DNA from: Bryum argenteum
Lineage: Eukaryota > Streptophyta > Bryopsida > Bryales > Bryaceae
DNA: 64,000 bases
Reading direction: 5' to 3'
Assembly: GCA_037043015.1 (NCBI GenBank)
Contig: CM073321.1
Location: 39,948,420-40,012,419 of the forward strand
Position numbers and translations under genes: made by a program. This document shows, piece by piece, positions 13,301 to 64,000 of this stretch; the stretch's first letter is position 1, and each line of letters starts with the position of its first letter. The notes beneath the pieces were generated by a model. The model had not been told where the DNA came from, ran no database searches, and worked only from the letters and a program-made list of their open reading frames with translations.

Positions 13301-13879
13301 CTAAGCTCGCAAAAGCCGGCGACGATACTTTCCATCCATCTCACAGTTGGCGAGAAACTTGCTAACACTTTGATAAGAACAAAGAGGCAAAATGAAGGGC
13401 AACAACGCCGTGGAGATATTAGGGATGATGATCTGAGAATTAGGAATGTCCATCTCCCCCTTCCAAGACTTCGGGAAGTAACACCACAAATCACCATTCC
13501 GCCTATTCCTCCATTGGCAGTCATCAACCATTAGTATGCGATCGATACGGCAAACTCTCCAAGTTGGGTGATCTTTCGTTAAGCGGAGCATAAGTTTTTG
13601 GCAGTAAGGGTACCAGTCTGGATTGTGGCACTTATTCCGTCCATAGACGAATAATAGCTTCGCTCGAATGTCATGGGGAAGCAAATAGTCAATAGCAAGA
13701 CGTAGTCGACCTAGAGGCATAGAAGACCAGATGCCAACATGAAAGTGCTTAAGGAGAATCCGAAGGAAAGAATGCAGCCCGGGCCATCGACGGATTCTCT
13801 TCAAGTCGAACTGAGATGGGTAACTTCCTCCGTAATCTTCGAAGCAAAGGACACCATTGACTAAAAACACAATCACATT
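13301..13879 (-). CDS. Unit A: degenerate FCP1-like HAD protein (HAD-a), 3' exon
   Basis: Uninterrupted 192-codon exon that starts at a good acceptor (TTTATGCAG, minus strand) and ends at a stop. The layout follows the FCP1/NIF branch of the HAD fold: motif I position NVIVFLVNGVLCFEDY, then RRWPGLHSFLRILLKHFHVGIWSSMPLGRL (motif II, WSS), and RILMVDDCQ (motif III). The nucleophilic Asp of motif I is replaced (FLVNG rather than FDLNG), so phosphatase activity is unlikely. A matching gene lies at 34.2-34.9 kb in unit B with the same order relative to HAD-b. A start exon upstream (between 13,880 and about 14,460) was not identified. Plant HAD proteins of this family are nuclear or of unknown role; a regulatory pseudo-phosphatase is a guess. 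Confidence 0.6.
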   Translation of the reverse strand, partial: NVIVFLVNGVLCFEDYGGSYPSQFDLKRIRRWPGLHSFLRILLKHFHVGIWSSMPLGRLRLAIDYLLPHDIRAKLLFVYGRNKCHNPDWYPYCQKLMLRLTKDHPTWRVCRIDRILMVDDCQWRNRRNGDLWCYFPKSWKGEMDIPNSQIIIPNISTALLPFILPLCSYQSVSKFLANCEMDGKYRRRLLRA

Positions 13880-13915
13880 CTGCATAAATACGACACATTC
13901 AGAAAATGTTAGCAA

Positions 13916-14465
13916 AAAAGATTAGGGATACAAGTAGAGGAAGAATATCAGGGGATTCCCTCACGCTGTAAGAATAGAAAATCCCTTATAATCGATGGCA
14001 GTTAAAATGAACGCATAACAACGAAAGAAAGACAATATAAGAGAATGGATTAGAAAAGGATGAGGTCGAACAAAGTGAAACCTTTTGTATGATGTTTGAA
14101 GGTTCTAAGTAAACATACATAGATATGGATAACCAAGTGGCATACGAAATGAATAACCAAGTGTAATTAGAGAAAACTACTGTTAATGCCACTTACAAGG
14201 ATTAGTGTCAAATGATATGGCCCAAGCTACTTATCGGGGGATCGCCCCATATAAAAATGCGGATGCTACTTATCGAGAATCGCCCCATAAACAATTCCGA
14301 CTGCTAGTTTGAACTGACGATCAGCGTACTTGGGAACCATAATGAAAGCAATGAAAGGTATGGGGCGGTCGACCCATGGAGGTTCCAATACTGGTCATTT
14401 AGAAGTAGTATAGCACAAAATAGAATCTGTACAGGAGACATATGCGAAGTTCAGAACCTAAAGAG
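13916..14465. other. Unit A spacer with P1 palindromes
   Basis: Noncoding gap between the two HAD coding blocks. It holds degenerate P1 copies near 14,235, 14,270 and 14,358 (ATCGGGGGATCGCCCCAT-like). A 5' exon of HAD-a may lie here, but I cannot place it. Confidence 0.5.
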
Positions 14466-15121
14466 TTATTTTTTACGTAACATGTTGAGGACTTTTCGAG
14501 CATCCTCTTCAGACGCTGGCGGTAGACCACCCTCAAGTGGGTTGTTCATGACAAATTCAAAAACTCTTAGACCCGAATGAAAAAGTCTTTGTAGCCAGGG
14601 CTTCAGGACGGAAAGTAAGAAGGTGTCCTGACTTCCTGCCCAAGAACGAGGGTGTATCGCCGAGTGATTGGCATTCAAAATGCACTTCAGCGGAGTGTCG
14701 TCAATTAAGAGCATACGATCAGTGGAACTTAAAGAAAGACGACTCTGGATGACACGTAAATCCTTAAGCAAGAGGGGCTTATTAGGTGACACCAAGTAGG
14801 TCGAAGGCGTACAGTCCTCTTGAGACAGCAGCAAAATCGCATCTGGTCGGAACGAGCAACCTTTTGTGACTTTGTTGACCATGTCTTTCACATTCTTCAT
14901 GGTGGCGGAACTCCAAATGACCATAGATGCATTCGTATAGACGAAATTCAGAAGCTCTGTACAGCCCGGTCTTGGAAATACTGGCCTCCCTCCCTTTTTA
15001 GAATATTCGCCCCTCCAACAGATCAACCCATTCAGGTCAAACACAACTACGTATCGCGGTGGTAGTACCTTGGCTTTTTCTTCAAATGTCTTGGGCTTCT
15101 CGAGCGCTGTTGAGGGACTCC
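14466..15121 (-). CDS. Unit A: HAD-b exon (FCP1/NIF-like)
   Basis: The exon begins at acceptor CATTGCAG and is open to its stop. Motif I is FDLNG, with the nucleophile Asp present and the second Asp replaced by Asn as in the plant DLNG class. Motif II is in MVIWSSATMKNVKD and motif III in RMLLIDDTPLKCI. The order and spacing match HAD-b of unit B and the HAD of unit C. By phase it can be the C-terminal domain of the long gene upstream rather than a separate gene. Metal-dependent phosphatase chemistry is possible but unproven. Confidence 0.65.
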
Positions 15122-15269
15122 CTGCAATGATTCATCTATTAAGTTGGAGGAAGAAATGTGATTTGGCTTATACCGAAATTAACGAGGGAAGGACAAATTA
15201 GTATTTAGAGCATGTTGAGCGAAGAAAAATATATCTAACTAGAATAGAGGTAAGCAAAAATAACCTATG

Positions 15270-16743
15270 TACTCTTATTATCATGACACTCTTTATCTCG
15301 CTCCACAGGACTAACCACACTTAGTCCAGCGCATGATGCCGGGCGATCAAGCGATGGCACATTTACATCTGGACCTTGCTCGACCTGGTAACCAGTATTA
15401 GTTAATTGCAAAAGCTGACGTTCAAATGCCTTACGAAGTACAATACATTTTGAGACATCATGTTTAGAATAGAAAGACAAAGAAGGACGCTACAAAAGCG
15501 CGTGCAACTTAATTGGCTCTTGAAATCAATTACCTCTTGAATAGCCTGTCTTGTAGACTTCCGCATGACCTTTGACGCCACCAATTCCGTAGATACGTTC
15601 TCGGAAGGACATCTCAGCTTCTCTCTAGCTTCACCTTCCATATCCAGTTCGATCGGCGTTCTCATCGGTACGTCCACAGTCGATTGTTTGGTAGAACAGG
15701 CGACCATCGACAGAATCTGTAAAGGATCCTTACGAGGCTTGTCGTATGGATCCGGGGCAGATGGCACAATTGTGATTGAGGCATCGAGTACCGGTACACC
15801 AACATCTGTACCCGAAGATTTGAAAAGTACCAAAGACTCATTATCGGTATCCGCATCAAGAACAACATGGGAAACCCGTGCTTCAGGTAGAGATTCTAAG
15901 CATTGAACCTTTTCCACTGAACTCATTGGGCGACCCCCCGATGATAGATGTAAACTCCCCGAGTCGAGAAAGTCCGAGTATTCAGAAACGTTGCTGCAAC
16001 CCACCTCCACAAGACGGTCAGGCACGGTCGACTCATCAGGACCCACGTATTCTTGAAGTCTTCCTCCATCCAAACGCAAAGGAGACGGGTTGCGGAAGGG
16101 ACTCATCTGAACCACGTCAACTAAGGAGTCTTTCATGCATGGGTCCAATGCCAGTTGACAGTCGACCGCACCATCTTTGTATGGTACTAGATGTTGACTT
16201 TCAGACTCCGGAATTTGGATGGAGCGATCCACCGATGGGTCTTCTGACCTGAAAACTACAGTATTGAGTGCACCTGATTCCACCCGCTCTGAATCGCGTA
16301 GGTCTGCATCGGGTAGAACATTCTCCGAGTCTATGTCCTCAGCAATTTCATCGTGGACATGTGTAGCGTCTTCGAGTAGAGGCTGGCTGGGAGAACTTGC
16401 TGATTCGATTAGGTCAGGCGTGTGGACACGAGCAACGACCGAACGAGGGGCAGAATTACCTCCGACAATATCCACGGACTTCCTCTTCTTTGAAGGGACG
16501 TTGACCTGTATTGAAGCCATATGAGCGAGCTCGTCACCGATTGACTGAAAACGGTGCAGTTCAAAGGCAAGAAGGTTTTTTGGGATCCTTGAACGTCGAC
16601 TGTGCCCCGCATATTTACTAGCTAAAGATACTGAATCCGAATACCCAGAGCCAGACAGGTGAGCCCAGGAGATGGCATCAGTGAGAACAGCATTATACTC
16701 ACGAAGATCCCCGACATACACATTCTCATACGCGGTCATTTCC
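15270..16743 (-). CDS. Unit A: disordered-region exons
   Basis: Exon 16,743-15,537 begins at acceptor TCGTGCAG and ends at a GTAATT donor after STRQAIQE. It encodes a long acidic, Ser/Pro-rich, low-order region with an NLS-like PSKKRK. A short exon (acceptor TTTTGTAG, about 15,490) continues RPSLSFYSKHDVSK. P1-like sequences fall inside the coding part near 15,925 and 16,212 and are read in frame (GRPMSSVE; DPSVDRSIQ). No enzymatic motif is visible. Confidence 0.5.
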
Positions 16744-17446
16744 TGCACGACGAGATTATTATCTTGAAATTTGGGTAGCTATGAAATTATTGAGGAAGTA
16801 TGTAATTAATTCGTTCCGATTGGGGTAACTATGTATTTAATAGCAGTATAGTTCATTGTCATACCATGTTTGATTCCCTCTGAGAACCACCAACTTCGTC
16901 ATGAGCACTTGACTCAAATCCCAGAGACCGTGCAGTTGTCGGCTTGTTAGAAGTTGAAGCCACGATCGGTGCAGACGCCTCTTCATCAGCTTCGACGTCA
17001 TCTACTTGTGTCGCTTCCTGACCCTGGCCATCATTTCCACGATCGTCGTTGGTATCGTTGGCGACACCCAAACCTTCATCATTGCTAGCGACTTCGTCAT
17101 CGTCGTCACTGGTATCTGCAAGAAGTTGTGCCAGACGTCTGCTAGAACCTGCGCTTGCATCTTTGATGACGACCTCCGACATAGATCTTGCAAGTTGAGT
17201 GGAGGGAGCGATTGCTTCGGCGTTGTCCACAAACTCCAATACAATTGCAGTGTTCGTCTGAGGAAGATGAACAAGGAGACATCGGTCGGTCGCCCCATAC
17301 AATGAATAGCATATGCAAATAAAAAATGACACAGATACGAAATCGGAGACATCAGTCGATCGCCCCATAGTATGATTAGCAGAGGCAGGGGAGAAAATAT
17401 AGAAAAGCAAATTTAGTGTAGCGAGGAAATAAATTACATTCTTACC

Positions 17447-18825
17447 AATCCAATATTTGTGATGTTGGGTCCACCATGGACATTGATCAATAATACGCCG
17501 TCCCTAATGAAAGACTTGAGAATCTCCGCAGAAGTGTTGAGATTCAAGGACGGCTCGCCAGGACGTCGCCACTGTCGGTCCGCAATATCCTTCTTCCACT
17601 CTCTCGCTCGATATACTCCTTCCAAACAAGACCAAGTAGTACGTTTCTTTGTCATCATCTTGTAGTCGAAGGCCTCTTGCCTACGCACTTCGGGGTTCTT
17701 GGCAAAGACAAAGACTATGTATACAACATAGTCTCATCCGATGTTGCTCGAGGGGAAATCATCATCTGGTTGAGGAATGTAGTGAACAACGTGGTAGTCC
17801 CAGGGCTGCGAATTAAGTCTTGCTGACCGCAATTGAATCTCCTTCACCATTTCCACCATGCCGTCAAAGTCCGTCACAATGATAGCCGCTCCTATACAAG
17901 TGATGCGCTTCTTCTCGTCGAGCTCCTCGCAGGCATCAAAAATGCCAGTAAGTCTTCTGCCCTCCATCAGTCTAGCCTTAATATTGCCTTCAACAGTGGT
18001 GAAGCAGAAACAGAAAATCAGAACCTTGATATCTCTGTCAGCTAACCATTCTCTGGTCATTTGCTCTTGGATAGAGAAATCGAGATCTCCTCTGAACCAA
18101 TCAAAACTCTGGCACTTGTATAATTTGCTGAAGAGTTCTTGAGGAGTCTGTTCGACAGGAGCCGATTTGACCGCTGCATAAGAGAGAAGGAGACATTTGA
18201 TGTTCGAAGAAAGGTCACTGTGTTTGGGATTCTTCACCAAGTTGTTGGTGCGTAGTTTGAGAAACTCCTCTCCCCCCGGTAAAGACTGTACTTTGTCAAG
18301 TAAAGACATCATGACACTGCGATCAATCTTCTTCTCACGCTCGAACTTGTCCCAATCCGCAGCAGCGTATGGAATGTACTCCGGCTTCTTGCTTGGAAGA
18401 GGTTTGCTCTCTACTAAGTACAGGAGTTCATTCTTGAGGACTCGTAACCTCTTCTCCGTGTTGCAGAAGTCAACCATAGACATCAACGTCGCAGGTTCAA
18501 ACTTGGAGTTCGTGCTCTTTACGCAAATTTTCTTCTTCTGGATGTATTGCGCCACTGTAGAGACATCTTCATTCCGCATCCCATGGAGAATTTTCAAGTC
18601 GTTCTTGACAAACGGCTTCCTCGGATTAACAGCGACTTCATGTGGAGCCGGTTCCCTACCCCATTGATCAGGAAGCCTCCCTGCCAACCACTCTTTCTCA
18701 ATCTGAACCCAAACTTGGAAGTCAGGATCATCAAGATAAAGCAGTGGAACTCTCCCATCTCCTGCATTCTTTCTTTGAGTACCGTTACCATCGAAGATGG
18801 CCTTCAGTTGAGGAAGAAATTCAGT
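17447..18825 (-). CDS. Unit A: unknown central domain exon
   Basis: About 460 codons from acceptor TTGCTGCAG to donor GTAAGA after NITNIGLV. I do not recognise the fold. Homologous segments occur at 38.6-37.5 kb (ending NVTKLGLV at an equivalent donor) and at 52.2-53.4 kb (WIVNGGTTNKLHKL). Notable stretches include WIEKEW-like Trp-rich helices and AAIIVTDFDGMVEMVKEI. One in-frame TGA lies near 17,732. The conserved exon ending shared by A and B shows that this intron predates their divergence. Confidence 0.5.
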
Positions 18826-20433
18826 CTGCAGCAAATGCCCAAATACATTTGGTAAACATGCGAAGTAATGGCAACATGACACTACGATAGTTATTAGAAA
18901 GCAGAACTAATATTGAAAAACTGCAAACTTGAGTCTTATATGATCATCGCTAATGCATCGGGGGATCGCCCGATGTTGGACAAGAAATTAGGAATCCTCT
19001 AAACCTACAATAATGAGTTATCTTGGCGGAGGAGAATGATTTGACTTTAAACTTGTCGGAGTGAACGCGCCCACAGAGAGCTGGAGGAGGTTTTCCGCAA
19101 TCCGTCCAAGCGACACGAGCATTAGAGAGTTGCTCAATATAAGTCTGTTCAGTCCTCTCTCCAGCAACATCTTGATTCATGACTCGTGAAAGATAGAGGA
19201 GCATCTTATAGTTGGACTGATGGCACCACACACGTATGATGGCGAAGTTCGATAGCAGATTCTTCTTGAGGTCCGAAATATGTTTCGGACCAAGCACGAT
19301 TTTCTTGTGAGCTTTAACAGTGTGCTGGCCACCAATAATGAAGAAGTGCGTATCTGTTGTGATCTCGCTCTCAACTGGTGCACGGTCAAAGTAAACCGGA
19401 GTACCTTTATTACCGAAGGCCTTCAGCGGTAAGACAACCACATGAGCTCGGACGAGACTTATATCGGGGACGATGTCTATTGCCATCATTAAATGCTGAA
19501 GCCGATCCGATACGAGCCCACGGTAGACCATCTTCCCCGCTTCTGCAAGGTGCAACTTTCAGTAATTCACAAGCAGGTCAGTACCTAGAGGCCTCTAAAA
19601 TGCTCCAGTCCCCGCCCCCCAAGTGCCTGACGATGAATATACAGAGGGCTAAAAACCTTGTCATAGAGCACCCTGATTTCCTCTCTTCGTTCAGCTGTGA
19701 GAAGTTTCTTGTCCTTATCATTGTAAGTCACAGCCTCTTCAATCGTCAGTTCCTTTTTAGTGTCAACTTTTGACTTCTTCCCTGCTGGAGCCTTGCTTCT
19801 CTCCGTTCTTAGCTTCACTGGCGACTTTCGTTTCTTGGTAGGCGTCACATTATTCGGTGGAGGCTCCTCGGCAGCAAGTGCGGATTCGTGCTGGGCCTCG
19901 AGCATAATACCCCAGCCTACATTGAGGTTGGCATGAGTGATTCTCGGATCCTCGTCCACATCTAACCCCTTTCCTTTACAACTGTCCGAAAGTGCATAAT
20001 CTAACTTTTGGACATAGAGGCGCAGCCCATATAGTCGGTCTGGAGGATGTCCTATGAGTGCATCTTCGTGAACAACCAGGAAAATGAATGGCCACTTGTC
20101 ATTCGCTACTTCTAAGGGCAATACCTCCATGCCGGTGCTCGTAGTTTGGGATTTTCCATTTGCACTGGTAATTACTGGAACTATTTTAGCCCTGCCACTT
20201 GGAAGCTTTTTCCAGAGGAATCCCCAGCCTCCAATTGACGGCAGCACACTATATACTGCTGGGACTTTACTCTTATCAGGCATAAGCAGGTTCTCGTCAC
20301 GAAGCCAGTATTCAACAAAGCGACTGGTTCGAATCGGACGCAAGTCCTCCGGGGCTTCTTGAAATGATGGAAGTCTGAAGAAAGCAAAGCCAAGAATTAG
20401 GATCTGAACAAAAAGACATGCTTATTTACATGG

Positions 20434-21253
20434 GGCGATCAACCGATACACCCGTGGTTAATTGCGATTCAAAATTCCAAGTCACTAGTCCTCTCTATTG
20501 TAAACAGTCATCGGTCGACCACCCGATGGACAGTGGGAACACGATTAAAACAAATCATCAATTCAATACTTAGAAACACAAGTTTTGCAGCATCGGGCGA
20601 TCAACCGATGAATCAGGCTGGTCATCATCCGAATTCTAGAGGCTACGCACTTGTCGATTAAAACCTGTTTCTGAGTCTTAGTTCCATCATGTGAACAACC
20701 GTATTGCATAGGTCGATCGCCCCATGCCCGCTGAGATTTACTATAAGAGAACAGCAGAATCACTAAATATAGATTGACTGGTTGTCTGTCATCGGGCGGT
20801 CGACCGATGAATAGGCTTGGTTGTCTGGCATCGGGCGATCGACCGATGCATAGGACTGGTTAGCTGTTCAGTGCATCGGTCGATCGCCCCATGTCCACTG
20901 AGAATATGTATAACAAAACAGCAGTATCTGGTAATAGAGATGGACTGGTTGTGTGGCATCGGGCGATCGACCGATGTATAGAACTGGAGGTCTGACATCG
21001 GGCGATCGACCGATGTATAGGACTGCTTAACTGTTCTGTGCATCGGTCGACCGCCCCAAACACTGACCGAAAAATTTAAAGAAGCAATATCAGCAAGAAC
21101 AACTACGTCCTAATAGTCGTCCTCCATCGGGCAATCGACCCATATGCTGAAATTAGTGCTCAGAGACTGAGCGTATCGTACACAGTTCATCGTACGGACA
21201 GTTACTGCGCTAGAAAACACATGATATTGCTGCATCGGTTGATCCGCAACTGA
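20434..21253. repeat. Unit A P1 palindrome array
   Basis: About twelve copies of CATCGGGCGATCGACCGATG and variants in the first intron and 5' region of the ParB-like gene, at about 20,434, 20,508, 20,592, 20,709, 20,789, 20,829, 20,873, 20,957, 20,997, 21,040, 21,125 and 21,233. Several gaps are near 40-44 or 84 bp. A higher-order unit of about 166 bp (palindromes plus shared spacers such as ACTGAGATTTACTATA-like) is repeated. Further copies lie at about 17,280, 17,345 and 18,956 in introns. Confidence 0.85.
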
Positions 21254-21313
21254 ACCCCAGAATTCTAATGACATTCATTCTCAGATAGACACAAGAGCAC
21301 GAAGTGAACTTAC

Positions 21314-21528
21314 TTCACATTCGGAGGATCCGTACAGTCGGGATTTGCTTCTTCTGTCATTGCTTCTTCGCCGAGTAATTCCTTCTTTCGCTTTTCAAAC
21401 ACTTTCTGAACTAGATCAGGACCACGGCCACAAATCCGAGCAGTTTGCTTTGTACGCGCCAGAACTTTAACAAATTTGAGGCCGAACTGTCTACACAATC
21501 TGCATTCGAGGAAAAAAAACCGCTTCAT
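21314..21528 (-). CDS. Unit A: first exon with exact histone H3 tail motif
   Basis: ATG at 21,528; the donor GTAAGT after codon phase 2 joins in phase to 20,374. The encoded segment reads FVKVLARTKQTARICGRG followed by a Lys/Glu-rich helix (VQKVFEKRKKELLGEE). ARTKQTAR equals residues 1-8 of mature histone H3, but here it is internal, preceded by Leu. An alternative acceptor (CGAATGCAG near 21,507) could trim the first residues without removing the motif. The downstream sequence is not H3-like, so this is not a histone gene fragment in any obvious way. Confidence 0.55.
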
Positions 21529-21899
21529 CAGTACTCTATTCTATTTCAAAATGAGTCTGAAAACGCGAGATTTAGGGTTTGGCTTTTAAAAATCAGAGTT
21601 CTTCAATCAACGAAGGAAGCAACGTAAAAAAATTAGGAGGCAAACTGTCGCACCTCTCGAACTTTGAAATACAACTGGAAGCAGCTTACACACGTCTAAA
21701 ACATGAATCCGAAGGCAATGAAGCATTTTGTTTGATGGAACACAAACAAAATCATACACAGATGAACTTCTTGAACCCATTCCGAAGAATAATCTTAAAA
21801 TAACTCAATTCTGGAATCGCTAAGACTCTGAAAACGCAATTGTAATGCAAGTGAAGAATCATTATACCCCTAAACACAACGAAGACAATCAAACATAAG

Positions 21900-22240
21900 T
21901 GAACAATGAGCAATCGGCAAAACATTGGGAGATTCAAACCTCCGATGCGCAGCAGCTGCTTCGAAGCTTCACTTCACGGCGCTCTTCAAATCCGACGAGC
22001 ACACGGGCAGGGGTTTAAGAACTCATGCGCATTGGCACGCACGCAATGGGACTCACGCAGCGGTTTCAGAATCGAAGCAAAAATCACGCAATGGCACGCA
22101 CGCAGCGGAAGCAGAATCGAAGCGAAAAAAACAAATGAACGCAACGCGCGCTCACAGCTCACAACAGCAAGCGCGGGAAATGACTTTGTGACGTCACGCC
22201 GCCAAATCTACTCATTACGCCGCCACCTTCAGTCATGATG
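21900..22240 (-). promoter_or_regulatory. Probable promoter / 5' leader of unit A
   Basis: GC-rich stretch with repeated GCACGCA and CGCAGCG motifs, ending abruptly in AT-rich DNA at about 22,240. It lies 5' of the first coding exon found. Comparable GC-rich leaders precede the ParB arms of units B (about 40.9-41.0 kb) and C (48.6-49.1 kb). No TATA box or start site can be assigned. Confidence 0.35.
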
Positions 22241-22320
22241 ACCTTGCACAATCATACTTTCACTGTCCTCTATCACTTCGTTGTCATATATTTATACGTA
22301 CAAAATACAATATATTCATA

Positions 22321-22600
22321 CCCTTACCTTGGCTATCAATTATATTCTGGCTAATAATAATACCTTGGCTAATATTTATACCCTTACCTTGGCTATCAAT
22401 TATATTCTGGCTAATAATAATACCTTGGCTAATATTTATACCCTTACCTTGGCTATCAATTATATTCTGGCTAATAATAATACCTTGGCTAATATTTATA
22501 CCCTTACCTTGGCTAATATTAATACCTCGGCTAATATTTATACCCTTACCTTGGCTAATATTAATACCTTGACTTATATTTATACCCTTACCTTGGCTTC
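22321..22600. repeat. 60-bp minisatellite
   Basis: Three identical 60-bp units (22,321-22,500), each beginning CCCTTACCTTGGCTATCAAT, followed by shorter variants (CCCTTACCTTGGCTAATATT) to about 22,600. Because 60 is a multiple of 3, it gives a long open frame (22,281-22,664) that I do not consider a gene. It begins immediately beyond the 5' end of unit A, where a DUF7869 arm would be expected. Confidence 0.9.
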
Positions 22601-22659
22601 AAGAAAATACGTATTCAATTTGAATGCATATGTAAATAAAATACTTGTTATTTGCACTC

Positions 22660-23574
22660 GGTAATAAAACGAAATAATTTTATAATCAACTTGGAAACAT
22701 ATAATTATTCTTGATATTAGTATAAATTCATTTTCAAAGTGAAAATGAAGTTAATAATGTTTTTATTCACAGACTATGAGGAATATCACGTATGAGCATT
22801 TGGCTCATCTTTATGATCTTTATGAAAGGGTTTCATAGAAATCTAAATTTTAGAAATATTTCACATGTAAATATGTAATTGTATCGTGGGATGATGAAGT
22901 AGAAATGAATCAATAATGGGGTGATTTTGATGTACCCCATTCTGTATTACCAAATAAAATTCTTACAAAACATATTAATACAACTTACAATGACTAGGTT
23001 CACTTGCCAATTTTGAGTTGAATTTTGAAACTATGAGTTCTCCAAAGTAAATTTATAAGTTGAAACTTACGAGGCTACGATTTTTTTTCCTTTAAAATTT
23101 AGATGTCACAAGCTACACACTAGTATGTTTGAAATCAATCTAAGGTTGATTCATTCAGATTATCTTCAAGATCCATTTGACGTAAATTTCTCCTTTAATT
23201 TATTTGCAAAGCAATAATTAATTTCTTTAAAAAGAATTGGTTTCTACAAAATTAATGTCTTGTATGCTAATTTAATTTATTTTCATGTTCTATTTATGAT
23301 TATGAGTAGATATGATCATATGAACCTAATGGGAAGCTCTACAAACTCACTGCAATTGCTTATTAAATGATTGGAAGTCTTTGTGAATTGCATCATGGTG
23401 ACGTTCTAAAGACATGAAGAGGTTCTAAAGACATGAAGAGTCGCAAACACCTAAAGGCTTTAATTATTCAATATTAGTAAATTAACTATAATTGAATTTA
23501 TTTACAAAGTTGATCATCAATTACAATTTAAAAAGTGTTATTTGAAATCAAATCACACTTTTTTCTATCTTCTA

Positions 23575-23626
<52 letters not shown>

Positions 23627-24740
23627 GCATCATGTGTTTGGTAAGCTCTGTCATATAATATTGTCATTTTCTTGGGAATTAACCCTTTCATGACCAATCA
23701 ACCAAATATATTCGCTGAAGTGTGGTTATTGCATGATTGAGTAGAATCTGTGTGGAAACAGCAATATGTTAAAGAACAACGCCGGAAGAGGAGTGTGTGC
23801 TGGATCTACTACACAAAACAACGAAGCATTTGGACTTGTACTCCGCCCGGTAGAGCTGTCTATACATGGTGATGAGTATGAGATACGGTAGCTGGTCTAG
23901 AAAGAAGTGAGAAAGATTCACGAAATACGGCTGTCGAGTAAACATGACACCAATTCTAAGGGTTCCTTGGGAACATGGGAACATGGGAACATGGGGGTAC
24001 TACTCAATTGGCTCCGTCGTCAAAAGAAGAGTTGATTTCTTTTGGCAACCCAACACCGTCTATCAAAGCGTATACGTTTGTACAACCTGAAATTCTCCCC
24101 AAAAAGAATCAACGTCATGTTGTTTGCACACTGATTCTACGTCAAGGCTCGGTGTCTGATAAATGTGACCATGTCTGATTTTTCTATCTGACCATATTTG
24201 GTACAATATCCCATGTATTTCTCGTACGCTACCGTATACAAGGAACTGGGTTCTTGGTCTCTTTTCACATTTTCAGTTTTATAAATGCTCGAAATGCAAC
24301 GCTCATGGTGTTGTTGGATAGATCTTCAAACTCTACAATATTGACCACATGTATTTTGCCCAAGTCTCGATATTCTGGTCTCTAATTCTAGTGAAAATCT
24401 TCGAGGTAATGTACTACACTTGACTCGGAACTACGCTATGTACTACACTTAACTCGGAACATCATAATACTCTAGTTCATATGGTAGATCTGATCCATGT
24501 TTGGCCACTAGCATGTACATGAAGTTCACTACACATTTATACGGTCGGATCTTAATTTTGACCCTTCATTTGTTCAATGCACTCCAAAACACATCCAGAC
24601 ACCTCAAAAAAACCTCGTCTTCCAAAACAGGAGTGGTCATAAAAGGGTTAAAGTCACTTAATATACATAATTTTGAGATTACCAATACTTGTGCATGTAT
24701 TAATATATGGCATAATAGTCTTATCACTATACAACGATAC
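22660..24740. other. AT-rich intergenic DNA, no gene seen
   Basis: No supportable gene. It contains a pure T run (23,577-23,622) and short local duplications (GTTCTAAAGACATGAAGA twice near 23,405-23,440; GGAACATG repeated near 23,970). Confidence 0.5.
23577..23622. repeat. 46-bp poly-T tract
   Basis: Uninterrupted T run. On the minus strand it is a poly-A, which could be the tail of a retroposed sequence. No retroelement coding sequence or target-site duplication could be recognised next to it. Confidence 0.9.
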
Positions 24741-25180
24741 TCTTATACTTTCTATGCCGATTCCAAGTGTTGTGGGCAGATTTTGTGAAAGGCAAGAACA
24801 TGATCGTATGGTGCAAAAGATTTGCAACTTCTAGAATCAATTTTAGCTAGTGACTGATTATCAGACAGTATTACCTGAATGAATGATGACTTGAGGTCAT
24901 GATTTCTGACGTTATTCTTATATTTTCTATGCCGATTCCGTGTTTTGTGAGCGGATTTTATGAAAGGCAACAACATGATCATATGGTCGAAACGATTTGC
25001 AACTTCTAGAATCAATTTTTAGCTAGTAACTCATTATCAGGCAGTGTTACCCGAATGAATGATGACTTGAGGTCATGATTCCGGACATTATTCTTATCTT
25101 TTCTATGCCGAGTCCAAGTTTAGTGAGCGGATTTTGTGAAGGCAACAACATGATCGTATGGTCCAAACGATTTGCAACTT
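24741..25180. repeat. About 176-bp satellite, about 2.5 copies
   Basis: Direct tandem copies starting at TTTCTATGCCGATTCC-like sequence at 24,751, 24,926 and 25,102, so the period is 175-176 bp. Each includes AACATGATCGTATGG and GATTTGCAACTTCTAGAATC; the last copy is truncated. The length is in the range of nucleosomal or centromeric plant satellites. Confidence 0.85.
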
Positions 25181-25741
25181 AAGGGGATATTAAGTATTTT
25201 GAGACAATTTGCAATCTCAATTTAAATCAGTGGTTAAAAATAGTAAATCTGGTGTCAAGTAAAATGAGACCGAATTGAAAATGAGACTCGAATGAACCCA
25301 ACAAAAGAATGTAAGTTGAATCCTTGATACCAAAAATTCTATTAATATAATTGTTGATCATTAATATTCATTATTTTGAGACGGAAAGTATATTGAGACT
25401 ACTTCACATCTCATTACTCGAGTCATAGATTGCAAGCTTCAAGGACCAAAAAAGTATTATGCATGATGAATATCATTACTTCAAAGAAAAATATATACAA
25501 GAAGTAATCCAATGAAAGGACATATTAATATCTATAGAGAAATAAAATTATCACAACACTAATGGAAGGAAATAATCCCATGGAAATACATTGAAATGGA
25601 TATACCATCTTACTATAAATAGATAAATCATGTTTAACAGTAGTGTCATACTACTCTAATTTGCGTTGGCTACATTGCAATGAGAAAGGGTGTACCATTG
25701 AAACTAATATAATCTAATATAACTATATATTAACATGAAAA

Positions 25742-28558: not shown

Positions 28559-28656
28559 CCTACAAAAAAGAGGAAGATTGAAAAGATAACTTAGTGCTTG
28601 TTTAATAGCATAGGAGATGATCAAATATGAAAACCGAGGCAAAAGTTCCGCCACAG

Positions 28657-46301: not shown

Positions 46302-46319
46302 GTTGTTCCTCATACATTT

Positions 46320-49725: not shown

Positions 49726-49731
49726 ACCAAA

Positions 49732-52070: not shown

Positions 52071-52202
52071 GTAAGACAATACACGTTTCCCATAGATTAT
52101 CCCCGGCCCGGGGATAATCCACCTTCTATTTCAGAGTTTGTCCCACACGTATTCATAGTTCTTTCACTCATCGCATCTAACATTTTTTTCATGTTTTCTC
52201 AG
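52071..52202 (+). other. 132-bp intron carrying one in-frame P3 palindrome
   Basis: Donor AAG|GTAAGA and acceptor TTTTCTCAG|AAA, phase 0, length divisible by 3 and without an in-frame stop, so retention would add 44 residues including DYPRPGDN. The corresponding introns in A and B carry P1 and P2 respectively. Confidence 0.75.
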
Positions 52203-55200
52203 AAATTTACGGATCTTCTGTCAATCCGGTATCGCAACATCAATCCCAACAAGGTAGGGAAGACAATTTTGACAACATCGGACCTCAAGCACGAGATTCA
52301 GATCATCAAATTTCTAGACAGCATGTACGATAAGTTCGCGGAGTTCCTCGAACTTCATTCGCTTGGAAATCTGATAAACCCCGACATAGGCGGAGCTTAT
52401 CGCATGAACCCAACGTACTTCACGAACGACAAGCATCATGTGAGCCGCGAGCTTTTCAGGAAGTTCGGAAATCTTTCCGATGATGACATCGACAGGGTCA
52501 TCACTTACCTTGTCCACGTTGAAACCGCCGAAGGTGCGCTGAAGTATCCAAGGTTGTCCTTCCACAAGACGAAGTACTTCCATCGCCTGAGCCACGCCTG
52601 AGGTGACTGGATTATTCGTCAAAAGTGCAAGGGAGTCGTGTACCAAGAGTTGAAGGCGGTCAGGCCATCTCTTCCATTCTTCCTTCCCAACGGCGGAGCG
52701 TTATGCCCAGAGAAATGGAAGATATGGAAGTCGAGGAAGGGCTTCTCGACGGCGTCGTGGAACATGCTGCTCAGCCACGTCGAGGCAAAATTCTACTCGA
52801 CCCGACTGCAGAATCAGGAGAAGTTCAAGACGGCCGGGGAGATGAAGTCCATGTTCCCCAACACCGAGGACTTCTTCAAGGGCTTCTTGCGGCAGAAGTC
52901 CAAGCATTGGAAGTCCACGAAGGCTTTTGATCTTCGGACCTTCGACTCGAAGGCCATGACTATTACTGGCCAATGGTCAACGCAGGTGCCTGCAGGAACA
53001 GTTTCGATGGGGCTGTTCGACTTGCGTGACACACCCTTCTCGCTTTGCAAGGACTCCAATGCTGGAAAGATGTTCTTCAAAGCATTGGTAGCAAAGTTCG
53101 CGGTGATATCAAGTCCAGCTTACACCGACCCTACTGTATGGGTCTGGATCGTGAACGGCGGCACTACGAACAAGCTTCATAAACTGAAGGCGATGATTCA
53201 GCTCAGCCACCCCACCTACACAATGAGCACGTCCAAGTACGTGGTGGCAATAGCTGAGAAGATCTTCAACGCGCCAGCCATAGAGAGATCTGCAAACGAC
53301 GTGTTCATTGTCTTCTTGTTCAAGAAGACACCAGAAGGGCAAGCCTTCATCGGCACAAACCCGTCGGAGTTCAAACCCATCAGCGGAGGCAATGGAGACA
53401 TCTCCTCCTATCTCCACTCCGATGGGTGATGAGCACCAGGCGCAGGGGCGTGATACCGAGATCCGACGCCCTGGTAAGGAGCCTATGCCAGTGATCCCGT
53501 CGAGGCTCGTTACGTCGACGACAATGCCTGTTCAATCATCTGCGGAGGTTGTCGTCGGAGCATCGGGCAACCCCGAGTCGCGTAGGCCATTGAAACGTCG
53601 ACTCGATCTCGCAGCTGAGACCACGGCCCCGAGTCAACCATTGGATGGGGCATCGTGCGCCATGCCCAATTCTACTGTTGCTCCTGCGGTGGACACAACC
53701 CCTCAGAGTAAAGTCCTTAACAGACGGGGGAGACCACTCTATGCATTCGTGGCGCCCACCCACGTATTCATAGATCTGAGTGACGAGGAAGGCACGGATC
53801 CGGCGGATGAATACTATGTCGTCGATGTCCCAACTCGTGAAGGCAAAACCATCGAGCTCCCGACGTCGACACCTTCAAGCTCCCGGCGTCGGAACCGGCC
53901 AGTTGATGATTCAGACCTGGCAGCTCTTGATGATGACACGGCGGTGAAGAAGGAGAAGGTTGTTGTGATGTGCAACCCCTCTACTGACCCAATGGCAAAT
54001 GCGGCAGGAGTTTCGCCTCCTCCAGGTGCTCCGGTTGTGAAGGTTGAAGAACACTACCTGGCGAATAAAAGGAGGCTAGCCGAGGAGGCCAGACTGGTAA
54101 AGGAGAAGGCCCGAAAGGAAGCAGAGGACGCTAAGATTCTTGCAGAACATAACATCGTCATGGAGTGGCTGAGGAGCGGCAAGCCGATGCCTGCCCACAT
54201 GGCTGCAATTATTGCAGGCGAGCATCCGGATCTTCCTTCCAGCTCGGGCACCCCGAGTTCCGAGCCTGGTGCAGATTATCCCCGGCGCGGGGATAATAGT
54301 GCCTCCACCACCGCGGCTGTACCGGGCAGCGAGATGGAGCCCTTGCCGCTGTCCTCGGGCACAGCCACAGCAGATTATCCCTGGGCCGGGGATAATCTTG
54401 CTGCGACCGGCTCCGACTTCCAGGCGCAGCCCATTCCCTCTGAGAGGGAACCAGAGCATGTCGTCGATGGCGCTGCTGAACCTCAGACTGTTGCCGATCA
54501 GCCCGGTAACTTTGGAGATTATCCCCGACCCGGGGATAATTGAGACTCTTCTGTCGAGGAGTCCCCTCCCGACGACCAACCTGCTCTGGGTCCTGATTCA
54601 TCGTGTGTTGCACCCGCTGCTGCAGTGGTTGAGACTGCTCATCCACCTGACTCAGGTCAAGAGCTCTCGCAGTACGACTTGTTGGTGAATTATGCTCGGC
54701 CCGGGGATAATGAGGAGCCAACAGGCTAAGTGGAGGACACCGTGGGTGCTCTAGGTGCTATAGAGGCGAGCGCGGAGGTCATACCTGATCCCACTGCAGC
54801 TCCGGCATCCGAGAAGCAAGAGATCGCAAACACTCCGCCAAGGACTCAGGTCGATGCCGATGACGAGTAGTTGGTGGACTATTCGTCTAGCCCGACCAAC
54901 GCGATTCAACCGCAAGAGCCACATGATAATGTAAGTGCTTTCACCCTCCCCCCAAAACTGCATAACTCGTCGTCGTCACAACCGTTATGATTTTGTTTGC
55001 TTGGCCTGAACGCTCCCGATTCGCTTGGCCTGAACTACGCTTCTTCGTCTATTTTCTCGTGCAGGAGATCGACGACCCTTACTCGTTATGTTTTTTCTGG
55101 AGTTGTCAACGTTTGTTGTGGTGCGTCATGTATTATAGATTTTTGGTAGTAATAGTTCTCAGCTTAGTGTTTCGGTCAAAGTTGACAAACACATGCCCTG

Positions 55201-55467
55201 TACATGATTGATGTAAATAAAATTATTTTTGATATCAATATTTTTGCCTTCAAATTGAAGTGTCATTTGATGTTCCTCAATGTCTTTCTCAGTTCACCTC
55301 TGTGGGATTCATTCTGCGCCCACGGGCTGTGAGATTGCTTCAGAATCCGATCGATCTAGCCCCAATGCCATGGATGCAATGCATGCCGTCATTGTGGATT
55401 TGCTCAGATCGCAGTGTCTCTGCTTTCAATCAGGTATCCTCAACATTATCGTTTCCTTTGATGCCAG

Positions 55468-56280
55468 GTAGAATTAATTTCCCAATTTGAGTGCGTCTCG
55501 CGGCTGAGGTCTGCACTCGGGCAGACGGCGCCGCCTCGATGGTTGAATGTTGTCCTCGACATCAACGGGATCCTTTGTCAGTGTGGGCATCTGCCATCGC
55601 TCCAGAAGAATTCTCTCTTTTTCTCTCCTGGAAACCGGCTCTACGTGCCGGACATCCCACCGAAGGTGCCTCCAAAGGCAGTCTTTTGCCGCCCGGGAGT
55701 GAGGGAATTCTTGGAGACTATATCCGCCCATGTTGCGAGGGTTGTGATATGGAGTTCGATGAAGAAGTCCACTGTTGAGGCCGTCATCGACTACCTCTTC
55801 AGTGGACTTCCTAAGCCTTTCGAAATCCTCAGACAAGAGTCTTGTGGCTTGGTTGAGGTTAGCAGCGGTGTCTATTTGTCATACCCAACCAATGCGCAAA
55901 AGAGGATATTTTTGAAAACGTTGTCCTCTGCGGTGTTCCCGCTTAGTAACGGTGCTGTTGTGTTTGGGTTGGATAACACTCTCCTCATTGACTACAGTCC
56001 TGAGAAGAGTATTTGCAACCACACCGGAAACGCCATTTTCCTCCAGCCTTGGACAAAATCTAGCCGGGAGGACAATACACTGTCCGCCGTGCTTACTCCA
56101 TGGCTACTCGCTCTTCTCGCCACTTGCAGGCCTGAGAATCTTCGGTCCTATGTCGACAATCATAGGATTGGTATTCCGCCTCTCAATAAGTATAGCAATT
56201 TAGGGAGGTTTATTTTAGACGGTATGGCGCAGTCGCATAGGAACTTAGGGCATACTTACGAAACTCCTTCCTTTCCTTAG
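55468..56280 (+). CDS. Unit C: FCP1-like HAD exon
   Basis: Acceptor TGATGCCAG at 55,467, phase 0, open to TAG at 56,280. Motif I LDINGILC keeps the nucleophile Asp with Asn at +2; motif II WSSMKKS; motif III LLIDYSP (second Asp of DDSP replaced by Tyr). The preceding exon ends FNQ| at a GTATCC donor (55,435 region). It has the best preserved motif I with that of unit A HAD-b. Confidence 0.65.
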   Translation, partial: VELISQFECVSRLRSALGQTAPPRWLNVVLDINGILCQCGHLPSLQKNSLFFSPGNRLYVPDIPPKVPPKAVFCRPGVREFLETISAHVARVVIWSSMKKSTVEAVIDYLFSGLPKPFEILRQESCGLVEVSSGVYLSYPTNAQKRIFLKTLSSAVFPLSNGAVVFGLDNTLLIDYSPEKSICNHTGNAIFLQPWTKSSREDNTLSAVLTPWLLALLATCRPENLRSYVDNHRIGIPPLNKYSNLGRFILDGMAQSHRNLGHTYETPSFP

Positions 56281-56770
56281 TCATTGTCTCGATGACAGTT
56301 AGGGCGCTCTTTATTCCTTTTTGAAGACGCAATAGATAATTATGTATATGGGTTGCTACAGTATGAATCAGGTTGGATTAATAAAGAAGCCGATTATTGT
56401 ATCATCCTTTATGTACCACATCGAAATGTGCTCAATTTTTATTTGTGATTTGTGGATGCTTGTTCACTTTGGATTGATGCTGATGATTGTTTCTGTTGTA
56501 TGACTCTTTCTTTGTTGTTAGTTAGGATGTCATTTCTGCCCGGCCCGGGGAAAATCTTTGGAAGTATCAGCTTGTATGATTTCAGTCTTCTGTTCTCTTT
56601 ATGTCGAATTTGATTTCACTTGTTGTTTTCTTCTTATGTTCTTGTATGCTTTGTGCTTGTGAACCTAACGTCAGTTCCCCCCGCTTAAGTTATCCCCGGT
56701 TCGTGGATAACTCTTGCATGTTCCTACGTCCATCTTTTCCTGACCGAGTCCTTGCATTTTTGATTTTGTT
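56281..56770. other. 3' flank of unit C HAD exon
   Basis: T-rich noncoding DNA with two degenerate P3 copies (about 56,540 and 56,690), the rightmost members of the family in the window. Confidence 0.5.
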
Positions 56771-56774
56771 CGAC

Positions 56775-57625
56775 AAGTCAAGGCGTCTTCCACCCTTGTC
56801 GAGTCCGGTGAAGAGGATGATGTCTCCAACGAGACCTCCGTCCCGGAATGTTCTGTTTCACTCTCGGCAAGTGTTGCCGCCTCTCTCGCTTCGAGGCATT
56901 TTGATATGTTCACGGCTTAGGACGCAGCATCCGCAACAATGGATTTTACAAGAGATAGTGTTGATGACAATGTTGTTGACAACCCGCCGAGTCGTGGTCT
57001 TGTTCGGACTCCTGTTTGGTTTCCGTCTCCCCTGAAGCGGCTTCATACATTACCATCGCGGCGACGCTCCATGTCGCTTGATGCTCATAATTCGAAAACA
57101 CCTCAGAGGCAGTTCTACTCCGGTGTGGGTGCTACGGACGTTCCTTTGCGAGATTCAATTGTTCCTCCTTCCACCATCAATGTGGGTGGGACGTCCAATA
57201 CATCACAACCCGCGATCCAAGTCAACAATTACAACAGTAGCAGGGCAACAAGATCCCTCGGCGGTGCCCCGCGACAACTTCGTTCAAAGGGGGATTTCTT
57301 GCCTCTTGCAAAGCCACTAGCATCGCGACACCCACCATTAAGGCGAGCTTCTTGCACACCCCAGCCGTATCCTGCGCATGGGGAATCGGCAGCTCCTTCA
57401 TCCTCTCGTCCTTCGCGTTCTCTTGACTCCCTTCGTAGGCGTGATGGGGAATGTTTTGACACCTGGTTTGCCCGTCGGAGTGAGACTTTGGGTACTAATT
57501 GCTTGCCAAACTCCCGTCGCAATGATCTTATTCGCACGCTTATGAAGCACCACGAGGCCGAAGCCAAGTTGTTGGAGAATTGCACCAAGCTGAATGGCTC
57601 TAAGTCTAAAGAGACAAAGCCTTAA
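56775..57625 (+). pseudogene. Unit C: Ser/Arg/Pro-rich protein with H3-tail-like segment
   Basis: A frame from about 56,775 (acidic, VESGEEDDVSNETSVPE) to the stop at 57,625 is broken only by TAG at about 56,921 (GCT TAG GAC). From the ATG at 56,939 it encodes 228 residues, rich in Ser, Arg and Pro, with a charged C-terminal helix (HHEAEAKLLENCTKLNGSKSK). At 57,239-57,292 it reads SRATRSLGGAPRQLRSKG, resembling histone H3 around residues 7-23 without Lys14 and Lys18. I recognise no catalytic domain. It follows the HAD exon in the place where units A and B have HAD-a. Confidence 0.4.
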
Positions 57626-57749
57626 TGTCCCTCCACCGTGGTCTTCCTACTCGGTTCTGATCAGGGATGTCACAGCGTCCGGACGTCCGCAGGGGGCTAT
57701 GGGAGCGTCCGTGACTTAGAGATTTTGGACTATTTACCTAAGGTAAAAG

Positions 57750-60688: not shown

Positions 60689-60699
60689 TAATCTTAGAA

Positions 60700-63600
60700 T
60701 ATGACGCGTACAACACAGCGCCAACGTCGATCCACTCAGGACGACGGTCCTCCACAACCCACCTAGCAGACCAACAATTCGTACTTCTTTGCCATGTCTC
60801 GCGCTGCGTTTTGGGCCTCTCAATACTGGATAAGAAACTTCCCGTACTTAGCAATACCCTCCTCCCTACAAACAGGGGACACTGCCCGACCTAGCCACAT
60901 AGGGCATATTGCTGGGTTTTCAGGTCTTGGGAGGACCCACCAAAGGGGAGCGATCTGGCGCCAAGGGTTAAATCTTTCTTCAAGCCTCTCATTAGCAGGT
61001 CCGGAGTACGCCTCAATTTCTTCGTCCTCCGGAGTAACGTCCAGTGGTAGCAAAGTCAGACATGGGACGGGGAACAAGGGCCCTGGCCAATCGTGAAGCG
61101 GCCAGAAGCCCTCAACTAATCGAGACGATGTGGGGGGCAAAGGCTTTTGGATTTCTGTCAGCACTCAAGACAAGTACTCGACATATGGTTCGAATGCAGC
61201 AGCAAATGTTGAGCACCTCCTCCGACCACTCTCCCAGTATTCAATCCATTTACAAATTCCATGCATCATGAAAGTCCATCGGTTTGTTCTTTGGCTGCAG
61301 CCTCCTGCGCCTTTGCTTGATTCCCTGTTTGTGATGGAACTTTGCAATCCCACATATGCTTGAAAGGAACCGGATTCAGATCACCAGACGGTAGTTAAGG
61401 TAGCCTGTTGATGTCCTCTTTCCAAAGACAAATTGGTGGTTTGTTATGCGGTTGCCACTGGGAATCCAGCGCTGACTTCTTCCATCTCATTACTGGCCAG
61501 CCGTCCGAATCAACATAGAATTTGAAAAGGTGCATCTCCCCAAGTCCAATCAATCGATAGCATTGGTAACCCTTGACGTAAGACTTGAAATCTGCAGTGT
61601 CTTGCACAAACTCTGGCATGAACGACAATTCTTGAGACTGCATGAAAGCTTTCATAAGGTTTGCAAGCACGAAGGTATTCCTGCTCTTGAGAGCTTTCGA
61701 GAGATGGCTAAAGTACGCATCAATATCTTCATGAGTATGTGCCACTAATAGAAACCTAGATTGGATATCCTCCAATACCCCCTTGGCCGTAAGCAATGAG
61801 AAAAATGACATCAGGTACTTGTTTTTGTTGTCCTTCGCTGAATCCTCTAATTGAAGATACAGTTTCTTAGGCAGTGGAGACACGCCAAAGAATTTGTTCG
61901 GATCCAAGACCGTTAGGGCATCGGTGCACTTGAATTTTCCGCGTAACAATGCTTCAAAGAGAGAATTAGCTGGTGGATGAGGAAAGAGTGTCCTCGATTC
62001 TCGAAGCTTTGCAAGAGACGAAATTGTGGCATTGGGTACGGAGGACCAGCAGTCCAGTGAGTAATGCGCATAGGCGCCGTCACTGTGGCCATGAATAACC
62101 ATTCCCGTCACGTTCATTAGAAGCTGGCCCAAGCCAGCCGTTGCCTTTGTTGTAGTCCTCATCCGTGGAAGAGCTGTCTTCGCGGTATCCATTTTGTCAT
62201 GAATCACACATTGATTTTCTTGAGAATTCCGCTTTGACTCTTCACGCCAAGTTGCATATAGCCGACGACAAAATGTCTGCTGAAGGGCGTTGCACTCGGT
62301 ACATTTTGCAAAACTACTCCCAATGGGTTTGATAGCAACGTTATTGAACATGCCCGTCTTGCTTCCGCTAATTGCAGACTGACTAAACGGCGGCAGGCCG
62401 TAGCAAAGGTTCGTCTGCGGAAGAATTCAAAGAAACCAAGTTAGATGAAAATCGACTCATTTACTATTACAAGCGAAGCAGACATATTACTACAAATATC
62501 TAGACCCAAGAAGCCTCGCTCAGGCATGGGGCGCACGCCCCAGCCCGACCTTACAAACATCTCAATTTGAAGGTAGGAATTTACCTCATTAACATCGGCG
62601 TGAACTTTCGTCTAGTTGTTAAAGGCCGGAAGATACTCCAATGTGTCGATTCGGCGGGGTTATCTGGTTCCGCGCATTTGGTTAGGCATCTGATCAGCGT
62701 TCTCCGACACAATTGCTGCAATTGTGCCTATAGCTTGAACCGTCCCGATGCCAGGACGCTTGATGCCTTTATTTCCATGCTGACCAAAAAGAACACCTAC
62801 CTTAAAGTTCCGAATGTATCGATGGAATCTTGATCTGGCGATACCATGAATTTTATACCACGCCATATTGCACAACTCAAGTCTCATCAGCGTCATCAAC
62901 TTCACTCTGACCCCCTGTTTGGAGTGCATTTCTCCACTGGCCGCAATGCAGTACTCACGCCCGTCCTGTTACTCTTTTAGATAGAACAACTGTCTAATAG
63001 AGCAAGTATGTGACGAGGGAAATCGTTGGCAACACAGTAAATTGCAGCAATTCTCCGCGCTAATTTGTCGAATCTCGGTGTCTCCCGTCATTTTGGTGTA
63101 CAAGGAAATGACAAGACTTTCATGGCACTTCCTGCTGACAAATCAATAGGGAGGTTTCTGAATCCCCCCCCCCCCATATATGCGTGAGGGTCGATGACTT
63201 CCGGCAGGGACGCGAAGTGTTGAAGTGTGTCAGTCAGGGATCGACCACTGAATGCAAAAAAGCATTTTGAAAGGGGCCACTTTTTATGCGTCATAATGGA
63301 CATGATATCACCGGTCATCACCTGAAGTACAGTGACTCCAACAGAGTCCTCAACAAGAATACCATCCTAGTAGGGGTCAATGGAATCTCAGCAGTTGATT
63401 CTACCCGAAGCCATAACAACCCCGTCATCACCCTTCCTACCTCGTGTCCCATCCACGGGGATCTTGGAATATAAGGAGAGTCCACACCCTCATCACTATC
63501 ATCAGTGTGGGAGTCTTCCGGTGGAATCATCAAGTCTATGACTTTCCAAAGCACACTCTTATCAACAGATTGACCGAGGACACTAACACCTACCCGGCAT

Positions 63601-63893
63601 GGATGGAGAGGCAAAGATGAAAATAGTGGAATGATCTTGGATGGCCGTAGCAATACAAAGTCATTACTGTTGTCAAGCGAATGAATACCTTGCTAGTTGC
63701 CAGCAAGATGTGCTTCAAGAATAAAACTTGACCCCACCTCCCCAATCCCAGGATAAAGAAGTGTGACATCCATCCCATACCGATACACAATGTCGTGTGA
63801 ACTTCTTCCACTAACCCAATTAGAATTTGGGAAGCTACCCGATGCCATTATATAGAGCAAACGTGTATCGAGGGCTTGCCCAATGCAACTCAC
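60700..63893 (-). pseudogene. Unit E: DUF7869-like gene, multiply damaged
   Basis: Read on the minus strand, 63,893 to about 63,090 gives weakly conserved N-terminal segments (frame changes near 63,320). Then 62,960-62,585 has the HTH-like region (GIARSRFHRY) and ENADQMPN, cut by a TAA and a TAG; the latter sits where unit B has Trp. Intron 62,415-62,584 (GTAAAT...CCGCAG, phase 0) is at the same codon as in B. Exon 2 reads KCTECN, IHDKMDTAKTA, HGHSDGAYAHY, LQLEDSAKDNKNKY and VAHTHEDIDAYF to 61,395, with further homology in shifted frames to about 60,700. Three motif changes (HGHGD to HGHSD, LDN to LED, GHT to AHT) argue for an inactive protein. The 3' end is truncated by the CACTA terminus. 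The 5' end may extend past the window. Confidence 0.6.
62527..62542. repeat. Single palindrome (P5) in unit E intron
   Basis: TGGGGCGCACGCCCCA, inverted except for the central CA, located in the intron that in unit B carries three P2 palindromes. This is the only copy seen before the window ends. Confidence 0.6.
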
Positions 63894-64000
63894 TAGAGGT
63901 AAGATATCAACACTTGAATCTCACGTTCGCCCGAGGTCGTTCGTGTCCTTGGCCAATCACTGAGATCGGGTGTTGCGAGATGATCAACTTGCCGGTGATG

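Follow-up and report, generated by a model that had tools for sequence, protein, structure and literature searches.

How does a transposon family recognise its own DNA when close relatives share the nucleus? This open question is raised by a 64,000-nucleotide stretch of the moss Bryum argenteum (assembly GCA_037043015.1, contig CM073321.1, positions 39,948,420 to 40,012,419 of the forward strand), referred to below as the window and numbered from its first letter. The window contains large DNA transposons inserted one into another, most of them with many copies of a short palindrome. Four families with homologous genes coexist in the genome, even nested, each with a private palindrome, and two of them keep it in derivatives of 194 to 360 bp. 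We consider it rather probable that the palindromes are binding sites of an element-encoded protein, by which a family would recognise its own DNA, gene-less miniature inverted-repeat transposable elements (MITEs) included, for mobilisation.

Nested transposons and their palindromes

The genome (258.8 Mb in 25 contigs) was scanned, and element borders were obtained by aligning the window to the fetched relatives. The window units are large DNA transposons of about 14 to 22 kb with terminal inverted repeats (TIRs) and 4-bp target duplications. Comparison of open reading frames (ORFs) and Pfam searches revealed homologous gene sets, with two divergent genes per element: a putative transposase gene (DUF7869 matched in B, C and E) and an accessory gene with putative ParB/sulfiredoxin (Srx)-like and HAD parts (NIF/HAD matched in A, B and C). 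Both the shared gene kinds and the mobile nature of the units had been anticipated by the original prediction, made from the letters of the window. Sites were called in the window at up to four mismatches to each family palindrome.

12752..25180, − strand: left portion of element A, with the HAD-side terminus ATGCATTATTTAAG (12752) and the accessory gene (− strand)
14359..21144: 17 copies of the A palindrome CATCGGGCGATCGACCGATG (at most four mismatches)
25181..33493: left portion of element C, with the transposase-side terminus AAGGGGATATTAAG (25181)
28658..29283: C palindromes TATCCCCGGCCCGGGGATA, first array, 14 sites
33490..33493: target duplication TAAG, left of B
33494..47381: element B, 13,888 bp, TIR AACGGGTATTTAAC / AACGGATATTTAAC, nested in C
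33723..47045: 37 copies of the B palindrome TATCGGCTGGCAGCCGATA (at most four mismatches)
47382..47385: target duplication TAAG, right of B
47382..57661: right portion of element C, with the accessory-gene half and 21 copies of the palindrome
49734..50611: second array of C palindromes, spaced ~62 bp apart
60689..64000 (window edge), − strand: element E, transposase half, an older A-family copy in opposite orientation to A

Despite the nesting, none of the window's palindromes (17 A, 37 B and 35 C sites) falls outside its own element, and the claim that no palindrome crosses between units held. The palindromes had also been said to fill noncoding DNA; they do form own-element arrays there, but 1/17 A, 10/37 B and 4/35 C sites are located inside ORF blocks (which may hold introns). 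Many copies sit in short tandem arrays. The site matrices are sharply bounded at 19–20 bp, and the flanks are near-random, except for a fixed T/A beside the C sites. In a de novo palindrome search, the family arms were top-ranked in the A, B and C stretches; the total number of palindromic sites in W_A was 11, hardly above that in shuffles (6–9). Inverted repeats able to fold, some of them in or between exons, could in principle act as hairpins in transcripts, for example as processing or termination signals. However, the sites occur in both orientations, the A consensus has one non-pairing position, and sites are present in gene-less MITEs, and such a role at the RNA level is very improbable.

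The termini are alike across the three families (A, ATGCATTATTTAAGTATATATGGAC; B, AACGGRTATTTAACTAATTATGGACAA; C, AAGGGGATATTNNKTATTTTGAGACAA). Genome-wide, 77 + 89 C-type ends were found at up to two mismatches, and 210 + 201 B-type and 98 + 94 A-type ends at up to three, the last two counts partly including MITEs and family D (see below); all reversed-pattern controls gave 0. Pairing was analysed for the exact ends among the matches listed (85 B; 100 C of the 166 C-type hits), with neighbours at up to 60 kb. Convergent neighbours numbered 30 (B) and 27 (C), the other orientation occurred once in each, and the median spacing was 14.2 kb for B and 21.5 kb for C. Of the ten full-length pairs examined, nine are flanked by exact 4-bp duplications, and the tenth has CAAA/CAAG. 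These convergent ends, their spacing and the duplications therefore identify TIR DNA transposons. The window's contig makes up 17% of the genome, yet it holds 30/85 exact B termini and 28/41 exact A palindromes; it is possibly a transposon-rich or sex chromosome, and since the sites are clustered, p-values would be too small.

As for the nesting order, B lies inside C and C inside A. The empty site for the B insertion is present in the C-family relative C1, and A stops aligning to its relative A1 exactly at 25181, the first base of C. C has no HAD-side terminus (the last ~685 bp are gone in comparison with C1), and because this end is missing, the C-in-A junction is visible on the left side only. 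No transposase half completing A was identified within the window. E runs to 66292 and resumes from 81711; inside it, inserted at 66293, lies F, a further B-family element (66293–81710) without a clean target duplication. The treatment of E as a separate lineage was dropped, since it aligns to A1 at 78–88% identity on both flanks of F and is thus an A-family copy. The CpG observed/expected ratio is 0.69 in E and 0.84–1.05 in the 15 other stretches compared below, as if E were an old methylated copy. All three nested insertions (33494, 25181 and 66293) fall between the transposase and accessory halves of the host; a preference for the spacer between divergent genes was rejected, three cases being too few. 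The 3 kb from the truncated C end to the truncated E start (57662–60688) have no long match to the fetched elements, and therefore a deletion or rearrangement may have joined C and E.

Palindromes across families and in gene-less derivatives

A fourth terminus type, family D, surfaced in the scan for A termini. D1 was picked by its terminus pair, and D2 likewise, after a one-mismatch match to the A palindrome had been noticed there. Both carry the gene set and show identities to A of 52–59% in the ParB region and 61–74% in HAD1; the D palindrome, ATCGGGCGATCGCCCGAT, differs from that of A at one half-site position. Sixteen stretches were compared: W_A, A1, A2 and E; D1 and D2; W_B, F and B1–B4; W_C and C1–C3. 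Because A1, A2, B1–B4 and C1–C3 were chosen by palindrome matches, only the lack of mixing is tested there. At up to three mismatches, B palindromes occur only in the six B stretches (28–44 each), C palindromes only in the four C stretches (29–44 each), and the A and D patterns, which resemble each other, are confined to the A/D stretches (10–28, with 1 in E). Composition-matched control palindromes (49–50 per family) gave means of 0.00 to 0.02 hits at the same threshold. Mixing within units was thus not seen, no B or C palindrome lying outside its own family.

Nor was scatter over the genome independent of the genes observed. Forward palindromes at up to one mismatch number 98 (A), 605 (B) and 1039 (C), with 0 for the reversed control. 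Among the matches listed, there are 100 exact B palindromes, all on the window's contig; 77 have a listed B terminus at a distance of up to 25 kb (84 when TIR variants are included), and only 2 are near a C-type terminus. The 16 leftover sites may belong to decayed copies. Of the 100 listed C palindromes, 74 are near a C-type terminus and 3 near another type. Palindrome clusters lie near their own terminus in 21/30 cases (B) and 9/15 cases (C), compared with 1.4 and 0.9 under random placement.

The half-sites (18 positions) differ between families as follows, with the best-segment identity of the ParB region given after each count: A–D, 1 difference, 52–59%; W_B–B1, 1 difference, 68–71% (W_B to B1–B4); D–B, 5–6 differences, 36–38%; A–B, 5–6 differences, 28–32%; B–C, 6 differences, 30–37%; A–C, 10 differences, 27–29%; D–C, 10 differences, 22–27%. 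Judged from these alignments, palindrome distance appears roughly to track protein distance, by rank only and over few families, as expected if the palindrome changes with the lineage, which was part of the original prediction. Within B, the sites of one element shift together: the share of half-sites with TGTC instead of TATC is ~56% in F, 38% in window B and 7–15% in B1–B4, counted on both matrix sides.

The sites are more alike than their 25-bp flanks in 10/10 element pairs, although this comparison is biased upward, the sites having been chosen in one partner. Between window B and B3, the identity is 85.3% for the sites and 57.0% for the flanks, and 17/21 sites are in the same place; in the C2–C3 pair, site identity merely equals overall identity.

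Sixteen MITEs among the matches listed were fetched by their termini alone. All ten B-type MITEs (303–360 bp) hold B palindromes, two sites each except for L062 (one site and a remnant), mostly ~47 bp from one end and ~74 bp from the other. Each of the six D-type MITEs (194 bp) holds one A/D-like site at 4–5 mismatches. For no MITE did any of 100 shuffles match its own pattern equally well. These B-MITE sites also match the C pattern at 5–9 mismatches, in many cases more closely than shuffles do, since the two patterns have their outer bases in common. Exact 4-bp duplications flank 13 of the 16. The retention of termini and palindromes by gene-less MITEs argues for recognition or mobilisation in cis and not only for gene regulation. 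In the B MITEs of ~342 bp (L059–L068), an imperfect inverted repeat lies in the centre, in addition to the two palindromes.

Several results weigh against the reading of the palindromes as family tags. E is a counter-example to site conservation: it has the genes and is A1-like at the identity given above, yet it is almost siteless, with 0 palindromes at up to four mismatches in 60689–66290 and the single one at up to three in all of the fetched E sequence. The element-specific tag proposed in the original prediction is helped by the presence of palindromes in MITEs; confidence in the recognition mechanism outlined below is slightly lowered by the assignment of E to the A family. The A1 sites are missing from E chiefly because the regions of A1 rich in palindromes (6675–7510 and 13334–13692) are alignment gaps. 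A private palindrome of E was sought and rejected, its frequent 8-mers being one local tandem repeat. Within the B MITEs, no extra conservation of the sites relative to the rest was seen, and each MITE type may descend from one founder. Finally, the units are real, but their predicted borders had to be moved: A starts at 12752 and C at 25181, and the units are nested, not side by side. Functionless palindromes, grown by slippage or spreading by gene conversion within each element, would suit the siteless E, the unexceptional MITE-internal sites, the short tandem arrays and the copies inside ORFs. On the other hand, site position and sequence are better kept than the flanks, the palindromes are absent from the nested foreign element, and they are present in two MITE types; we regard this explanation as improbable.

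Genes of the elements

The predicted fold of DUF7869 has an RNase H-like order of elements with an invariant Asp and gives weak structural matches to integrases, Mos1, IstA and TnsB. The identification of the DUF7869 gene as a DDE-type transposase gene is supported by this model, not proven. The transposase ORFs are as follows:

25745..27382, − strand: C, DUF7869 transposase core (Pfam; fold of relative P0032)
27386..28270, − strand: C, transposase N-terminal part (helix-turn-helix (HTH) match below the cut-off)
41843..44092, + strand: B, transposase N-terminal part (six palindromes inside the ORF)
44268..45845, + strand: B, DUF7869 transposase core (Pfam)
45864..46298, + strand: B, transposase C-terminal part (ORF comparison)
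61398..62426, − strand: E, DUF7869 transposase core (Pfam)

The organisms named among the best 120 of 425 DUF7869 relatives are the mosses Ceratodon purpureus (P0032, P0044) and Physcomitrium patens (P0056). In viral contigs, 43 stretches fit a pattern and 0 encode a relative. Prokaryote contigs contain two distant relatives, in contigs of metagenome-assembled genomes (L029 and L030), and none of the A, B and C palindromes was found in these two. No mention of DUF7869 was found in the literature searched.

CACTA/EnSpm elements have CACTA termini, 3-bp duplications and subterminal repeats bound by an element protein. The short repeated motifs are a point of likeness; the termini here are AAGGGG, AACGGR and ATGCAY, the duplication is 4 bp, and the sites are spread throughout the element. 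By analogy, the N-terminal part of the transposase alone could bind the palindrome, the ParB-like gene having another role. The HTH match and the mostly fixed position of the two B-MITE sites are consistent with this, but the sites of full-length elements lie throughout, far from the ends too, and we treat this alternative as doubtful.

The accessory gene consists of the following parts:

13304..13921, − strand: A, HAD1 domain (weak NIF match, without the motif-I Asp)
14469..15131, − strand: A, HAD2 domain (PF03031, motif I DxNG)
17737..18906, − strand: A, central domain (ORF comparison)
18953..19558, − strand: A, ParB/Srx-like domain (IIGGQHTV motif; fold of C-family relative P0121)
19588..20421, − strand: A, N-terminal part
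34200..34877, − strand: B, HAD1 domain (weak NIF match)
35334..36116, − strand: B, HAD2 domain (motif I NxNG)
37911..38671, − strand: B, central domain, two ORFs (ORF comparison)
38675..39088, − strand: B, ParB/Srx-like domain
39404..40144, − strand: B, N-terminal part
50781..52598, + strand: C, PH-like N-terminal part and ParB/Srx-like domain (ORF end probably an intron)
52602..53426, + strand: C, central region
53284..54540, + strand: C, low-complexity, disordered-looking ORF (palindromes read as YPRPGDN)
55462..56277, + strand: C, HAD2 domain (motif I DxNG)

A region with the motif II[GD]GQH[ST]V is present in A, B and C, and the presence of a ParB/sulfiredoxin-like domain in the accessory protein is likewise supported, not proven. 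No ParB domain was named by Pfam, NCBIfam or PDB sequence searches. In PDB profile searches, the HAD alignment found no relative and the other two alignments only chance-level matches. At least 14 relatives of the accessory protein are among the matches listed, 0 of them with a Pfam domain listed. Pfam matches to NIF/HAD number two in A, two in B and one in C, those of HAD1 and one of HAD2 being weak. Motif I of catalytic HAD phosphatases (NIF) is DxDx(T/V), whereas HAD2 has DxNG (NxNG in window B) and HAD1 has no motif-I Asp where it is readable. Without the usual catalytic residues, the HAD domains probably act as protein–protein modules. Pfam gave no methyltransferase match.

Peptides encoded by the palindromes were sought in 134 proteins with at most one residue different. 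The matches (B 1, C 1, A 5, D 4; shuffle means 0.45, 0.7, 1.3 and 0.85) give no evidence by count. The B match is in P0001 (B clade) and the C match in P0123 (C clade); the A and D strings (e.g., NSVDSPM, HLAIAR) look unrelated. Two other strings, VGCPPT (Ceratodon P0044) and YHRSGD (P0124), were noted by eye only.

Candidate roles and known systems

The preferred reading, recognition of a family's own DNA by an element-encoded protein, can be outlined as follows. A dimeric DNA-binding protein would bind the family palindrome, most likely the ParB-like accessory protein and otherwise the N-terminal part of the transposase, and this binding would serve the mobilisation of full-length copies and MITEs alike. 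The arrays of full-length elements would expand through local duplication in introns and around the divergent genes, and marking or de-silencing of the copy may be a further role. If protein and palindrome change together, each family would acquire its own code. Specificity, protein and evolution are directly testable, and mosses would offer natural candidate protein–site pairs.

In the bacterial ParB–parS system, a ParB-fold protein with an arginine-containing motif acts on palindromic sites; here, the setting is a nuclear eukaryotic transposon, and the motif is GQH[S/T] without the ParB arginines. A parS-like version of recognition, in which the accessory protein loads on the palindromes, coating or bridging the copy before passing it to the transposase, is tentative. 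It would make each family and its MITEs a closed group, and lock-and-key coevolution would split lineages.

The target duplication of Sola-1 is also 4 bp, and TIRs with 4-bp duplications are found here in full-length elements and MITEs. Such duplications are stated for Sola2 (PMC3627910), and a Physcomitrella Sola1 is listed in a review table (PMC9033089). The 21.5-kb giant Sola-1 transposon of Ectocarpus, Sola1-1_Ec32, carries a ParB domain, and accessory proteins are proposed to bind and modify their own transposon (PMC12477816). The likeness rests on size, the putative ParB-like domain, the TIRs and the duplication; there, ParB is fused to a DNA methyltransferase, whereas here the ParB-like domain is joined to central, disordered-looking and HAD parts. 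The word stem for palindromes is not mentioned in the main text of PMC12477816.

In Arabidopsis, the VANC protein of VANDAL elements (MULE) recognises short motifs repeated in the noncoding DNA of its own family; these motifs occur as tandem repeats and differ from one related family to another (PMC5735166). MITEs are not mentioned in the VANDAL text consulted. A family-specific motif repeated in noncoding DNA is found here too. The VANDAL motif, YAGTATTAY, is 9 bp in length (PMC5735166), compared with the 19–20 bp palindromes here, the transposase is another one, and the VANDAL accessory domains are DUF1985/DUF287, neither of which was found when 30 window ORFs (E up to 0.1) and nine relatives were scanned against Pfam. 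By analogy, the accessory protein could bind the palindromes and strip silencing marks, transposition itself being independent of them. The layout fits, with arrays upstream of genes and in introns, tandem growth and divergence between related families (PMC5735166, PMC10398659), and tandem arrays holding palindromes are present in the moss elements; however, gene-less MITEs hold palindromes that would be needless if the sites only controlled gene silencing, and anti-silencing as the sole role seems unlikely. By these comparisons, the nearest known systems appear to be the Ectocarpus ParB–methyltransferase Sola-1 element and the VANDAL/VANC system. A description of the moss elements was not found in the available text of the literature on ParB-carrying or giant transposons, moss Sola and palindromic subterminal sites.

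Other repeats were noted in the window, where Rfam gave no match. Short GC-rich tandem repeats lie outside the studied elements (3895–4091 and 57750–57856). Interstitial plant-type telomere repeats, (TTTAGGG)n, are located at 47098–47182 in B, ~200 bp from its right end. The C spacer contains a TATAT-rich array (30042–31140), with related arrays in C1 and C3.

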